Shown here one piece after another: positions 1,237 through 5,440 of a stretch of DNA of 5,440 nt. The stretch's first letter is position 1. Each line of letters begins with the position of its first letter. A program made the translations under genes and the position numbers. The DNA is from Thiomicrorhabdus sp. (GTDB taxonomy: Bacteria > Pseudomonadota > Gammaproteobacteria > Thiomicrospirales > Thiomicrospiraceae): assembly GCA_021648185.1 (NCBI GenBank), contig JAKITH010000085.1:1-5440 (forward strand). The letters run 5' to 3'. The notes under the pieces are model-generated. The model made no database searches and was not told the origin of the DNA. It saw only the letters and a program-made list of their open reading frames with translations.

Positions 1237-1872
1237 ATGAATTTTGATATGACGATCAGTGCATTGGATTTGCTGGGAACCGTGGTGTTTGCGATCACAG
1301 GGTTGCTGGCGGCAAGCCGTAAGCAGTTAGACTTATTTGGCGCCATCGTCATTGCGATGGTGACGGCCATTGGTGGCGGAACCTTGCGTGATCTGATTTT
1401 AGATCAACCTGTGTTTTGGGTTACGCAACCCATCTATATTTACATTGTGGTGACCGCGGCGCTGTTTATGTTTTTTTACGCCAAGTTTAAAACCCCTCCA
1501 ATGCGCTTGCTGTTGTATTTAGATGCATTGGGTTTGGCGGTATTTACCGCTATTGGGGCGCAAAAAGCGATGGACTTAGGATTGAGTGACCCCATTATTA
1601 TTATGACCGCGATTATGACTGGGGCGGCAGGTGGGGTGATTCGAGATGTGTTGGTGGGTGAAGTTCCGTTGATTTTTCGTAAAGAAATTTATGCCACCGC
1701 GAGCTTTATTGGCGCGAGTGTAATGGTATTGGCAACGGGCTTTTTTGAGCAGCAAGAAGTGGCGGTGATGTTGTGTATTGTGGTGGTCTTTAGTTTACGA
1801 ATTTTGACCATCATTGGTAATTACAGTTTGCCGGTGTTTAACCCAATTCATAAACAGGATTCGGATGATTAA
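1237..1872 (+). CDS. TRIC-type cation channel / UPF0126 membrane protein (YicG-like)
   Basis: The product is 211 residues from ATG 1237; relatives are about 205. An upstream in-frame GTG (1231) abuts the TATAAT box and would fall outside its transcript. ATG 1249 is a third option giving 207 residues. No Shine-Dalgarno sequence precedes any of them. The protein is almost entirely hydrophobic, with about seven membrane helices, built from two homologous halves. Each half carries the family's Gly-rich motif: GGGTLRD at residues 46-52 and AGGVIRD at 131-137, each followed by a short acidic/proline stretch (ILDQPVFW; VLVGEVPLIF). Prokaryotic TRIC proteins of this fold are trimeric monovalent-cation channels. 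The Pfam repeat has also been called a glycine transporter domain, so substrate is not certain. A palindromic element is inserted right at the stop codon. Confidence 0.88.
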   Translation: MNFDMTISALDLLGTVVFAITGLLAASRKQLDLFGAIVIAMVTAIGGGTLRDLILDQPVFWVTQPIYIYIVVTAALFMFFYAKFKTPPMRLLLYLDALGLAVFTAIGAQKAMDLGLSDPIIIMTAIMTGAAGGVIRDVLVGEVPLIFRKEIYATASFIGASVMVLATGFFEQQEVAVMLCIVVVFSLRILTIIGNYSLPVFNPIHKQDSDD

Positions 1873-1874
1873 AA
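1870..1874. repeat. Left target-site duplication TAAAA, containing the TRIC stop codon
   Basis: TAAAA lies directly left of the palindromic element and is repeated exactly on its right (2034-2038). Its first three bases are the TAA stop codon of the TRIC gene. With a 5-bp AT-rich repeat, chance cannot be excluded, but both copies abut the inverted repeats exactly. Confidence 0.65.
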
Positions 1875-1892
1875 GAGACCTTTGCACGAGAG
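1875..1892 (+). repeat. Left terminal inverted repeat of the palindromic element
   Basis: GAGACCTTTGCACGAGAG is identical over 18 nt to the reverse complement of 2016-2033. Counting the outer A1874/T2034 pair, which I assign to the target duplication, the symmetry reaches 19 bp. Confidence 0.88.
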
Positions 1893-1945
1893 GATGCACG
1901 GATAAAAAAGGCTGAAATACGCCTGATTTTCGTTGAAAACCTTGC

Positions 1946-1961
1946 GAATACCTAGGTATTC
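1946..1961. repeat. Central 16-bp perfect palindrome of the element
   Basis: GAATACCTAGGTATTC is its own reverse complement. Its centre (between 1953 and 1954) coincides with the midpoint of the two terminal repeats, so the element is symmetric at every scale. Confidence 0.9.
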
Positions 1962-2015
1962 CCTGCGATTTCCGCCTCAATCAGTCAAATTTCATCTCTT
2001 TTTTCTCTAGCGCCT

Positions 2016-2033
2016 CTCTCGTGCAAAGGTCTC
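2016..2033 (-). repeat. Right terminal inverted repeat of the palindromic element
   Basis: CTCTCGTGCAAAGGTCTC is the exact reverse complement of 1875-1892. Just inside, the right arm has an extra CT compared with the left, so perfect pairing stops here. Confidence 0.88.
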
Positions 2034-2038
2034 TAAAA
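2034..2038. repeat. Right target-site duplication TAAAA
   Basis: This is the exact copy of 1870-1874, abutting the right inverted repeat. Before insertion the TRIC stop would have run TAAAA then TAACG, leaving only about 30 bp to the lolC start. Confidence 0.65.
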
Positions 2039-2068: not shown

Positions 2069-3322
2069 ATGTTTAAACTTCCTTATGAGCTATTTTTAGG
2101 GCTGCGCTATACCCGTGCGAAACGGCGTAATGGCTTTATCTCATTTATCTCTTTTTCATCAATGATTGGAATCGCTTTGGGCGTGACGGCGTTAATTACG
2201 ATTATGTCGATTATGAACGGCTTTCAAGAAGAGTTACGAGACCGTATTTTGGGTATGACCGCCCACATGACCATTAATGAGCAGAACAATCGCTTAGAAG
2301 ACTGGGATTCGCTCTACAATCAAATGATTAATCAACCACATGTTACCGGTGCGGCGCCCAACATTATGGAGCAAGGCATGTTAAGCCATGCGGGTGAAGT
2401 GAAAGGGGTGCAAATTAGAGGCGTATTACCAGAGCTTGAAAATGACGTAGCGGACATTGACAGTAAAATGTTAGACGATGGTCAGCTTGCGGATTTGGTT
2501 CCTAAAAAATATCGGATGATTTTGGGCAGTGAGTTGGCGATGAGCTTAGGGGTGGATATTGGAGATAAAGTGACACTCATCGCACCGCAAGGGACGATTT
2601 CACCTGTGGGCATGGTGCCACGTATTAAACGCTTTACGGTGGTGGGTATCTTTGAAGCAGGAATGCATGAGTACGACAGCGGACTGGCCATTATTCACAT
2701 AGAAGACGCTAAAAAAGTGTTTAAGTATGGTGACTCTGTCAGTGCATTGCAACTTAAGTTAGACGATATGTTTTTGGTGGCTAAGGTTAAAAATCAGTTA
2801 GCAAAAGTGGCTGAAAAATCCTTGTATTTGCGCGACTGGACGCAACAACACGCCAACTTTTTTAGAGCGATTGAGATGGAAAAACGGATGATGTTTATTG
2901 TGTTGGCTTTAATCATCATGGTCGCCACCTTTAACATTGTCTCCACTATGGTGATGGTGGTCACGGATAAGCAGGGCGACATTGCGGTACTGCGAACCAT
3001 TGGCGCATCGCCGGGCAGTATTCAACTTATTTTTATTATTCAAGGTCTGGTGATTGGTGTGCTCGGCTCGTTGATGGGATTAGCAGGGGGCTTGAGTTTG
3101 GCCTTTAATATTGATGTGATTATCCCCTTTATTGAGACCATTTTAGGCATTGAGTTTTTCCCAGCGGATGTGTATTACATCAGCAGTGTGCCCTCTAAAG
3201 TAGAGTGGAGTGATGTGTGGTCGGTAACCGGTTTGGCCTTTGTGTTAACCTTGCTGGCCACACTGTACCCCGCTTTTAAAGCCGCAAAACTTCAACCTGC
3301 CGAGGCATTACGTTATGAGTGA
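2069..3322 (+). CDS. lolC: Lipoprotein-releasing ABC transporter permease LolC (or homodimeric LolF)
   Basis: The product is 417 residues; E. coli LolC and LolE are 400 and 414. It is the inner-membrane permease of the Lol system, which extracts outer-membrane lipoproteins and transfers them to periplasmic LolA. It opens with the family's N-terminal PYELFLGLRYTRAKRRNGFISF. TM1 is at about 22-49, followed by a large periplasmic domain (~50-270). TM2 is near 276-298, TM3 near 317-345 and TM4 near 383-405, in an FtsX-type arrangement, and it ends PAEALRYE. A proline-rich PQGTISPVGMVPR stretch (173-185) sits where LolC carries the LolA-binding Hook (167-179 in E. coli). The ATG is weakly served: AAGG lies 12 nt upstream. 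It overlaps lolD by 8 nt. With no lolE following lolD, it may act as a homodimer. No clear promoter is seen between the palindromic element and the start, so read-through from the TRIC gene is possible. Confidence 0.93.
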   Translation: MFKLPYELFLGLRYTRAKRRNGFISFISFSSMIGIALGVTALITIMSIMNGFQEELRDRILGMTAHMTINEQNNRLEDWDSLYNQMINQPHVTGAAPNIMEQGMLSHAGEVKGVQIRGVLPELENDVADIDSKMLDDGQLADLVPKKYRMILGSELAMSLGVDIGDKVTLIAPQGTISPVGMVPRIKRFTVVGIFEAGMHEYDSGLAIIHIEDAKKVFKYGDSVSALQLKLDDMFLVAKVKNQLAKVAEKSLYLRDWTQQHANFFRAIEMEKRMMFIVLALIIMVATFNIVSTMVMVVTDKQGDIAVLRTIGASPGSIQLIFIIQGLVIGVLGSLMGLAGGLSLAFNIDVIIPFIETILGIEFFPADVYYISSVPSKVEWSDVWSVTGLAFVLTLLATLYPAFKAAKLQPAEALRYE

Positions 3323-3998
3323 GTTTGTATTACAAGCCAAAGAACTGTCCAAATCGTTTACCGATGCCGCCGTGCAAATCACCGTATTTACCGATGTAAA
3401 TTTAGCGATAAAGCCGGGTGAAAAGGTCGCGATTGTGGGCGCTTCGGGGTCAGGAAAAAGTACCTTATTGCATATTTTAGCGGGATTAGACCAACCCGAT
3501 AGTGGCGAGGTTTTACTGAATGGTGCGTCTTTTTCACAACAAAAAGATACCCCACGTGGGCGGTTACGCAATCAGTACATGGGCTTTGTGTACCAGTTTC
3601 ATCACTTACTGCCAGAGCTTAGTGCACTAGAAAATGTGATGCTGCCGCTTAGGGTCAGGCGAACGGCCGCCAAAGAGGCGCAAACCACTGCGGAAAAGTT
3701 GTTAACACGTGTGGGATTAGCTGATCGTGCACACCACAAACCCAGTGAACTCTCGGGAGGGGAGCGTCAAAGAGTTGCCATTGCGCGTGCTTTAATTACC
3801 GAACCCAAATGCATTTTAGCCGATGAACCCACAGGAAATTTAGATGATACCTCTGCAGATCAGGTGTTTCAGTTATTACTGGAGCTGAATCAAGAGTTTA
3901 ATACGGCATTGGTGATTGTGACCCATGATTTGGCGTTGGCAAGTAAAATGGATCGTCAATTACGCCTGTCAGGCGGCCATATTCAAGAGGTTAAATAA
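3315..3998 (+). CDS. lolD: Lipoprotein-releasing system ATP-binding protein LolD
   Basis: The product is 227 residues, full length for LolD. This cytoplasmic ATPase drives lipoprotein release through the LolC-type permease. Motifs in order: Walker A GASGSGKST (42-50), Q-loop Gln94 within the FVYQFHHLLPE segment characteristic of LolD, ABC signature LSGGERQR (146-153), Walker B ILADEP with catalytic Glu171, D-loop GNLD (174-177), and switch His204 in VTHD. All key residues are intact. The start ATG overlaps the lolC stop (ATGAGTGA), with GAGG (3302-3305) 9 nt upstream as ribosome-binding site; this indicates translational coupling. LolD belongs to the MacB/LolD/FtsE class, but the HHLLPE segment and the lolC neighbour favour LolD over MacB or FtsE. 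Confidence 0.96.
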   Translation: MSEFVLQAKELSKSFTDAAVQITVFTDVNLAIKPGEKVAIVGASGSGKSTLLHILAGLDQPDSGEVLLNGASFSQQKDTPRGRLRNQYMGFVYQFHHLLPELSALENVMLPLRVRRTAAKEAQTTAEKLLTRVGLADRAHHKPSELSGGERQRVAIARALITEPKCILADEPTGNLDDTSADQVFQLLLELNQEFNTALVIVTHDLALASKMDRQLRLSGGHIQEVK

Positions 3999-4001
3999 AC
4001 C

Positions 4002-5440
4002 GTGTTATCCCTTCAAAATCTATCCATTCGAGCCGGCTCAAAATTACTGTTTCAAGGCGCTACGCTTAATGTACATCCTGGGCAAAAAATTGGCTTAATT
4101 GGTCAAAATGGCACAGGAAAAACCACTCTATTTAAAACCCTATTGGGTGAACATTCGGTGGATGAAGGCCAAGTCGCCATTCCTGCCAACTGGTTAATCG
4201 GCAGTGTGGAGCAAGAGGTAAAACAGCTTGACTTAAATGCACTGGATTACGTCTGTTTTGGTGACACAAAATACGCGCACGCGCAAAAACAAGTCGCTGA
4301 ATCGGAAGCCACAGAAGACCATGATGCTTTGGTGCGAGCTTACGATGTTTTGGATAAAATAGACGGGTTTGCCGTGCCCAATAATGCGCGTCAATTGCTG
4401 TACGGTCTGGGGTTTAGTGAAGCCGATTTTGAAAAGAAAATTTCTGAATTTTCAGGGGGTTGGCAAGTTCGTTTAAAGTTGGCTAGAGCCTTAATGCAGC
4501 GTTCTGATTTATTGCTATTAGACGAACCCACCAACCATTTAGACATTGAAGCCGTGGCCTGGTTGATTCAGTGGTTAAAGTCCTATGAAGGCGCCATTTT
4601 AATCATCTCACACGATCGAGATTTTTTAGACCAAGTGGTGCAAGGCATTGCCCATATTCTCCAGCAAAAAATTACCTTTTATTCGGGAAATTTTGCCTCG
4701 TTTGAACGCCAGCGTAATGAACAGCTCATGCAACAACAAGCGTTGCACGACAAACAAAAACAGCAAATGCAGCATCTTAAAAGTTTTATTGAACGCTTTA
4801 AAGCCAAAGCCAGTAAAGCCAAGCAAGCGCAAAGCCGAGTAAAAGCCCTAGAGCGAATGGAAGAGGTGGCTGCTGTACAAGCCAGTAATCCGTTTACCTT
4901 TAAATTCTCCCCCCCCCAGCACCAGCCCGATCCCATGTTAGGGCTGGAGCATGTTGATTTTTCTTACGCAGATCAACCCATTTTAAAAGACGTAGATTTA
5001 ACCTTACGAGCAGGCGATCGTATTGGTTTAGTGGGCGTAAATGGCTCAGGTAAATCCACCTTAATTAAATTGTTGGTGGGCGATTTACCGCCTGAAAATG
5101 GCAAGGTTAAAATCAGTAGAGGGGTAAAGTTTGGCTATTTTGCACAACATCAGCTGGAATCGTTAATCTATGAAAAAAGCCCCCTACAGCACCTGCTCAT
5201 GTTGCCCGAACCGCCCAGCGATCAAGAAGCACGTAATTTTTTAGGCAGTTTTGGTTTTTCTAATGAACAGTGCTTGGACTCTATAAAACACTTTTCGGGG
5301 GGCGAAAAAGCCCGCCTAGCGTTAGCGATTATTGTTTACCAAAAGCCCAATTTAATTATTTTAGATGAGCCAACCAACCATCTGGATATGGATACTCGAG
5401 ATGCGCTGGATATGGCACTGCAAGATTTTGACGGTGCCTT
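4002..5440 (+). CDS. yheS: ABC-F family ATPase YheS, 3' end outside window
   Basis: The frame opens at GTG 4002, 3 nt after the lolD stop, with AAGAGG (3985-3990) 11 nt upstream. It stays open to the window end: 479 codons plus two bases of a protein usually ~635 long. It has two fused ABC domains and no membrane segment. Domain 1: Walker A GQNGTGKTT (34-42), signature FSGGW (150-154), Walker B LLLDEPTNHLD (Asp174, Glu175), His204. The linker (~205-310) holds the charged, Gln-rich helical arm typical of ABC-F, with KAKASKAKQAQSR and LERME motifs strongly resembling E. coli YheS. Domain 2: Walker A GVNGSGKST (345-353), signature FSGGEKARLALA (from 431), Walker B LDEPTNHLD (Asp455, Glu456). ABC-F proteins bind the ribosomal E site and modulate translation; YheS's exact job is less clear. 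A C9 run lies in the linker. Missing: the end of domain 2 and the C-terminal coiled coil. Confidence 0.95.
   Translation, partial: MLSLQNLSIRAGSKLLFQGATLNVHPGQKIGLIGQNGTGKTTLFKTLLGEHSVDEGQVAIPANWLIGSVEQEVKQLDLNALDYVCFGDTKYAHAQKQVAESEATEDHDALVRAYDVLDKIDGFAVPNNARQLLYGLGFSEADFEKKISEFSGGWQVRLKLARALMQRSDLLLLDEPTNHLDIEAVAWLIQWLKSYEGAILIISHDRDFLDQVVQGIAHILQQKITFYSGNFASFERQRNEQLMQQQALHDKQKQQMQHLKSFIERFKAKASKAKQAQSRVKALERMEEVAAVQASNPFTFKFSPPQHQPDPMLGLEHVDFSYADQPILKDVDLTLRAGDRIGLVGVNGSGKSTLIKLLVGDLPPENGKVKISRGVKFGYFAQHQLESLIYEKSPLQHLLMLPEPPSDQEARNFLGSFGFSNEQCLDSIKHFSGGEKARLALAIIVYQKPNLIILDEPTNHLDMDTRDALDMALQDFDGA
4909..4917 (+). repeat. C9 homopolymer inside yheS
   Basis: Nine consecutive C encode part of Ser303-Pro304-Pro305-Gln306 at the end of the interdomain linker. 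The rest of the gene is AT-leaning and contains no comparable run. Losing one C would bring a stop at 4939-4941; gaining one would bring a stop at 4955-4957. Either would leave only the first ABC domain and the arm. Confidence 0.85.

Follow-up and report, generated by a model that had tools for sequence, protein, structure and literature searches.

A MITE family with IS5-family ends and a conserved hairpin, inserted at the stop codon of a TRIC-family gene in Thiomicrorhabdus

The repeat between a TRIC-family gene and a lolC-like gene of Thiomicrorhabdus sp. is very probably a non-autonomous MITE, moved in trans by the transposase of an IS5-family insertion sequence (IS), formed by inverted duplication of an IS end and landed on TAAAA at the TRIC stop codon. 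We studied it in a stretch of 5440 bp (the window) and in related genomes. The mover would be the transposase of an IS5-family IS with the left end GAGACCTTTGCACGAGA (or GAGATCTTTGCACGAAA), acting in trans, and GAGACCTTTGCACGA is the putative end sequence by which it would recognise the MITE. The element most likely arose when the IS left end was duplicated in inverted orientation round a core of other source. Insertion would take place at AT-rich Y-WWWWW-R sites with a 5-bp duplication and would here have used TAAAA at the stop codon, just upstream of lolC and in the direction of transcription. The hairpin may since have been selected as a structure, either as DNA during transposition or as RNA in 3' untranslated regions, rather than kept by copying between its arms.

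As determined by direct reading and repeat search, the element comprises 159 bp at positions 1875-2033 (+ strand), with perfect inverted ends of 18 bp as the initial annotation had described them. Its orientation is shared with both flanking genes, and the window copy sets the + direction of the family profile. The terminal inverted repeats (TIRs) lie at 1875-1892 (left, + strand) and 2016-2033 (right, − strand). Repeat search returned arms of 19 nt (1874-1892 and 2016-2034) with 100% complementarity, which become the 18-bp perfect TIRs once the flanking A/T pair is counted into the duplication. The element is non-coding and too small for a transposase, as MITEs are. The flanks TAAAA at 1870-1874 and 2034-2038 read identically, in keeping with the 5-bp duplication found family-wide, and the left one holds the upstream stop codon as had been noted. 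The central perfect palindrome of 16 bp, GAATACCTAGGTATTC, forms the hairpin apex at 1946-1961. Its centre (1953.5) and that of the element (1954) differ by half a base, so that the single common centre proposed for the symmetry is accurate to that offset. Folded as RNA, positions 1870-2038 gave −66.5 kcal/mol, against −33.26 ± 3.7 kcal/mol in shuffled sequences (z = −8.98; 0/200 as low). The hairpin spans the full length of the element. Thus the central palindrome and the end-to-end fold of the supposed palindromic design are borne out, but full symmetry is not, since internal loops and bulges interrupt it. The pair 80/85 is C-G in the window and in a copy from genome G003, and G-C in most relatives.

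The upstream gene (1231-1872, + strand) encodes a TRIC/glycine-transporter family protein of 213 aa (Pfam PF03458 Gly_transporter, E = 1.4e-45) and ends with TAA at 1870-1872. The lolC-like gene (2069-3322, + strand; 417 aa; Pfam MacB_PCD and FtsX) begins 30 bases past the right TAAAA; its protein is 97% identical to LolC of a Thiomicrorhabdus MAG, and its 3' end is overlapped by a lolD-like gene (3315-3998, + strand). A lysine/alanine-rich ORF of 74 aa (867-1091, + strand) gave no match in Pfam and resembles histone-H1-like proteins. The last + strand reading frame, presumably ABC-F-like, extends beyond the window end and contains a run of nine C at 4909-4917. Runs of ten and seven C were also seen in the pre-lolC spacers of two relatives (loci L001 and L002), and these runs are possible slippage sites.

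Searched by BLAST (E 1e-3), the lolC loci of relatives showed no match to the element within the pre-lolC spacer in 80/80 loci, and the empty sites expected between the TRIC gene and lolC were thereby found. Elsewhere in these loci, a MITE copy lies 2.1 kb ahead of lolC in L021, and the far end of L016 holds part of one. The empty site in L003 reads ...GATGATTCAAAATAATATTTTAAAAAGGC, and the window, after one duplication is dropped together with the element, reads ...GATGAT[TAAAA]ATAACGTTTTTAAAAAGGC. The L003 gene end reads ...GAT GAT TCA AAA TAA, and the TRIC-family protein of the window is two residues shorter than that of L003. The A creating the in-frame TAA is present in both TAAAA copies, so the stop is probably older than the insertion. 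Judged from this one relative, a substitution seems to have produced the in-frame TAA before the element arrived, in which case the insertion would have preserved an existing stop and not created one. The initial annotation held that insertion regenerated the stop and left the protein intact; the stop was indeed kept across the insertion, but it appears to have existed beforehand, and the protein lacks two codons relative to that of L003.

The element had matches in each of the 14 genomes searched at first, which belong to the 16 nearest loci after removal of L013 and L015, and in 36 of the 62 genomes of the family; the order-level search also covered 62 genomes, with 36 matching. In genome G010, a profile search of two 0.8-Mb stretches (1.6 Mb) returned 58 + 85 = 143 non-overlapping matches, about one per 11 kb, and 47 and 71 of these, respectively, were full-length. 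An exact 5-bp duplication flanked 47 of 82 full copies (47 from G010, 26 from G003, 8 from G035 and the window copy), against 1.2% of pairs in a mismatched-flank control. It was also present in 32 of 72 further copies, which were the best matches of other genomes and include one copy counted twice (L021 = L319, neither duplicated), giving 79/154 combined. The second, fresh stretch of G010 gave 37 of 71 full copies. The insertion target is the symmetric Y-WWWWW-R. In a 113-bp partial copy directly before a full one (L256, G003:C97:4404-4677) we observed an apparent insertion of one MITE into another. Searches of plasmid sequences with the element gave zero matches.

The genomes of relatives thus hold dispersed copies in number, with duplications of fixed length and with empty sites. 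These copies, together with an IS that has the same ends, uphold the MITE reading of the initial annotation, which had looked for many duplicated copies in relatives; neither a single copy without an empty site nor a conserved ancestral spacer was encountered. The alternative of an immobile sequence, a structured spacer or terminator ancestral to the TRIC-lolC region, has a negligible probability. The hairpin itself speaks for such an origin and nothing else does, whereas the relatives' spacers have no match in 80/80 loci, the copies are dispersed with target duplications, a promoter and terminator scan of 1700-2200 found none, and Rfam gave no family at gathering score within the window. In our view the dispersed copies and the empty sites refute a terminator or ancestral intergenic sequence.

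The source of the MITE ends was sought among transposase genes. DDE_Tnp_1 was searched in 12 genomes, five of which matched, and 30 loci were inspected. Genome G002 contains two IS copies of 1254 bp with 94% identity, the match beginning at the left end and stopping two bases before the right end. Their reading frames have 337 codons (328 aa from the first Met), and their ends are GAGATCTTTGCACGAAAAC and GAGACCTTTGCACAAC or GGGACCTTTGCACGAC. The transposase belongs to the IS5 family (NF033581, E = 2.6e-77, 260 bits with a cut-off of 140; Pfam DDE_Tnp_1 and DUF772). A shortened relative of 586 bp with a 142-aa reading frame occurs in G001, and relatives of the transposase at E 1e-20 were present in 9/62 genomes, part of them as fragments. 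Nine distinct two-ended IS copies were compared (L164, L165, L166, L167, L171, L173, L174, L179 and L183), and an exact 5-bp duplication flanked three of them (aataa, aagat, aagct), all three in G060. An IS with matching ends, as had been called for, was accordingly found.

The first 17 bases of the left TIR are identical to the left end of the IS in G007, G056 and G060, and the right TIR also matches this IS left end at 17/17 in these three of the four IS compared. The IS right end matches the MITE ends over 8-12 bases in the same three IS. The IS of G002 matches with its left end at 14/15 and with its right end at 13/13, so that the match of the right TIR to the right end covers 8-13 bases over the four IS. 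The match of both TIRs to one and the same IS end, seen with three of the four IS, suggests that the MITE is a fold-back whose ends both derive from the IS left end. Ends in common with an IS5-family element (17/17, three of four IS) and the same duplication length are what defines IS5-derived MITEs. Ends with GAGAGC for GAGACC occurred both in MITEs (G012, G014, G024 and others) and next to transposase fragments (L168, L177). The MITE interior showed no match to the four IS past short chance words. From these end sequences, the likely mover is an IS5-family element of about 1.25 kb with the same ends, whose transposase would carry out the transposition. Several findings count against it: at E 1e-20 the MITE-rich genomes G010 and G003 lacked a transposase relative, in G055, G056 and G060 the IS was present and a MITE match absent, and six of the nine two-ended IS copies had no duplication.

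A second IS was sought in G010 and rejected. The 1.6 Mb examined contain a single TIR pair at IS-like spacing, 1347 bp apart, which encloses fabG- and acpP-like frames and no transposase. Of the 22 DDE_Tnp_1 matches of this genome, 18 were examined as loci (13 with 400-codon frames, 5 with 354- or 390-codon frames), and among these no GAGACCTTTGCA-like end pair recurred in the same place.

To describe how the hairpin has changed, the window copy was aligned with 22 others, each standing for one genome (23 sequences). RNAalifold returned a structure of 50 pairs, and 20 of these were changed on both sides, compared with 9.9 ± 1.6 in shuffles; the corresponding number of cells was 68 against 22.0 ± 3.3. 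Paired cells reached 95.7%, versus 89.0% in shuffles, and 0/500 shuffles were as high in any of five measures; relatedness persists in the shuffles, so these numbers are not probabilities. Slid controls of the hairpin had 2-8 pairs changed on both sides, a control in which the hairpin is favoured since its structure was derived from the same sequences. For all 133 copies of similar length, RNAalifold returned no structure. The fold is conserved through compensatory change, and DNA structure, RNA or copying between arms are all possible causes.

Wobble pairs bear on the choice among these causes. One reading is that the hairpin is kept as RNA, delivered in sense as a 3' UTR or operon-internal hairpin after stop codons, here between the TRIC-family gene and lolC, and altering mRNA decay (as is reported for ERIC and NEMIS and proposed for QMITE2). 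We consider this possible but doubtful. The strong, compensated fold agrees with it. In the genome consensuses G-U cells outnumbered A-C cells (58 vs 15), but 42 of the G-U cells lie in two constant columns. Private single changes outside the TIRs in 122 copies gave 17 G-U and 14 A-C (P = 0.72), which tells against an RNA role. Among the copies nearest the consensus the counts were 15 and 10 (105 copies, P = 0.42) or 14 and 7 (101 copies, P = 0.19), the latter leaning towards RNA without significance. When shared subfamily variants and the TIRs were counted as well, in five genomes, the result was 36 G-U and 60 A-C and so ran the other way (P = 0.018 towards A-C). The initial annotation had suggested that the element was selected to be, or arose as, a hairpin able to fold. 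The general form of this suggestion is partly supported by the fold-back ends (three of four IS) and the compensated fold, while the more specific part, an mRNA-stabilising or RNase III-cleaved repeat, is met by no significant excess of G-U.

Compensation without a clear wobble preference is also what would be seen if the arms were kept alike by mutation and not by selection, through template switching from arm to arm or conversion among copies. Such template switching within an imperfect palindrome is known as quasipalindrome correction. Private changes were fewer in paired columns (41/6422) than in unpaired ones (64/5353; P = 0.0016), which is expected under selection and under arm-to-arm copying alike, and the presence of none, A, B or AB of the inserts described below in G010 copies is as from conversion or recurrent loss. 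However, the 23-sequence consensus keeps unpaired stretches on both arms (e.g. columns 21-26 and 139-144), and these should vanish under unchecked correction. Copying between arms is a minority possibility in our estimate, and we retain selection on the structure as the working proposal.

The positions of the copies relative to genes were examined with a home-made gene caller (coding 87%). A stop codon ended 0-4 bp before an element end in 8 of 55 copies (first half of G010, and G035), where 1.5 were expected under uniform placement (P = 1e-4) and 1.7 under motif-weighted placement (P = 3e-4). The replicate in the fresh G010 stretch gave 5/71, all five in sense (P = 0.07, using the first set's expectation), and the combined count was 13/126 against about 4 expected (P = 1.6e-4). 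Fifteen of 82 copies shared more than 12 bp with a called gene, and in 4 of the 38 gene-end cases listed a TGA stop was completed by the first GA of the element. Between co-directional genes, 28 of 43 copies lay along transcription and 15 against it (P = 0.066; 18/10 in G010, 4/0 in G035, 5/5 in G003, and the window copy); in the replicate the division was 27 to 11 of 38 (P = 0.014), and G010 and G035 pooled gave 49/70 (P = 0.0011). Both the stop adjacency and the sense orientation favour the RNA role. Against it stand the even orientation in G003 alone, the fruitless terminator and promoter scan, and the fact that a position bias may reflect only purifying selection against other sites. Copies from the same genome cannot count as separate lineages, and selection is absent from the null models, so the bias fits either function or tolerance; it is compatible with an RNA role and equally with simple tolerance of harmless insertions.

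The MITE also occurs in longer forms. Among 118 full copies in G010, 68 were without an extra module and the remainder were combinations of four inserts, assigned by approximate matching: A (20 nt), B (25 nt), C (36 nt) and D (26 nt, replacing a few core bases). The combinations were B (17 copies), ABCD (8), A (7), AB (7), ABC (4), ABD (3), D (2), CD (1) and BCD (1). Each insert holds a small palindrome and, as judged by eye, A pairs with D and B with C across the main stem; the consensus 260-bp form folds at −130.3 kcal/mol. Outside G010, one copy in G035 has D by itself, and one copy each in G012 and G003 has B or an insert like it. A, B and D were rejected as free repeats, as their counts inside and outside the MITE in 1.6 Mb of G010 were 46/2, 44/4 and 46/0, numbers that overlap because A resembles the reverse complement of D.

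Insert C also exists independently, as a 36-bp hairpin repeat with the pattern CGAAGAACTCGNCGCCCGNAGGGGTAAGNCGAG, and is present in 18/62 genomes at up to three mismatches. At the loci viewed (L375, L378, L386-L395, L397 and L399) and elsewhere it occurs singly, in tandem (G022, G027; 36-bp spacing) and inside the MITE, where it takes other positions at L378, L386, L389, L391 and L392. Its stems are compensated (CTCGAC/GTCGAG, CTCGGC/GCCGAG, CTCGCC/GGCGAG). At L397 the repeat lies in the loop of a strong hairpin (percentile 0.00); insertion into hairpin loops as a rule was rejected, the other seven of eight loci being at percentiles 0.17-1.00. A REP/RAYT system, with a RAYT transposase moving the repeat, was not supported, since Y1 transposases do not track the repeat-rich genomes: Y1_Tnp (E 0.001) was absent from G020 (15 units), G022 (15), G014 (9) and G023 (5), and a match was present in G010 (40 units, mostly in MITEs), G041 (24) and G027 (20).

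It is conceivable, though we think it unlikely, that the IS-derived fold-back is now a mobile structural unit, with a selected hairpin, sense delivery to gene ends and loops receiving 36-bp hairpins. If true, a hairpin-in-hairpin element would be diversifying gene ends across a bacterial family, supplying ready-made 3' UTR or operon-internal hairpins. The family offers one system for an old question, whether a long hairpin is a by-product of the ends, a DNA structure of transposition or a selected RNA. The question is testable there through compensation, wobble bias, orientation and position, because the family combines a high copy number with clean target duplications, a same-ended IS and representatives of 22 genomes. 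It also provides an example of a short hairpin repeat nested at defined positions in another mobile element. The hosts are sulfur-oxidising sea bacteria.

The sequence GAGACCTTTGCA ends BrickBuilt copies of Porphyromonas gingivalis and the IS5-family element ISNme1 of Neisseria, and ISNme1, with ends GAGACCTTTGCAAAA, is the proposed parent of the Neisseria ATR (PMC4596501). Of the two papers found to contain GAGACCTTTGCA, the other has it as a primer. ISNme1 and BrickBuilt_4 have the same first 12 end bases as the present MITE, and IS5-family parents were proposed from the ends there too; BrickBuilt is also without a transposase remnant (PMC4596501), the likeness being one of ends and description. 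BrickBuilt belongs to a different host group and has varying duplications and a minisatellite, whereas here the duplications are mostly fixed at 5 bp, the hairpin is long and the ends extend to GAGACCTTTGCACGAGA.

A full-length hairpin is not novel in itself, because long stem-loops are given for small bacterial MITEs as a class (PMC2229807). ERIC (127 bp) and YPAL (about 168 bp) of enterobacteria are likewise small and mostly intergenic, with stable stem-loop transcripts, and ERIC at the 3' ends of Yersinia genes affects transcripts in a manner that depends on orientation (PMC2229807, PMC10969869). ERIC has TA termini and YPAL has internal inverted repeats and variable duplications, in contrast to the present family, known from sequence alone, with its same-ended IS. 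The Correia/NEMIS elements of Neisseria (about 107 and 155 bp) are stem-loop MITEs in which an internal block gives length variants, as here, and RNase III is reported to cleave them at the TIRs (PMC10969869, PMC2229807); by description rather than by sequence, they differ in their TA ends and 24-bp TIR. QMITE2 of Coxiella burnetii (150-190 bp) is similar in its strong predicted fold, its 3' untranslated or intergenic location, its full and small versions and the REP it contains, and differs, again by description and not by sequence, in duplications of 7-11 nt against 5 bp (PMC5896051). For Thiomicrorhabdus, Hydrogenovibrio and Thiomicrospira, no MITE report was among the literature matches listed. 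Taken with these systems, the MITE family is probably new and its kind known, that of an IS5-derived MITE, here with a probable fold-back origin.
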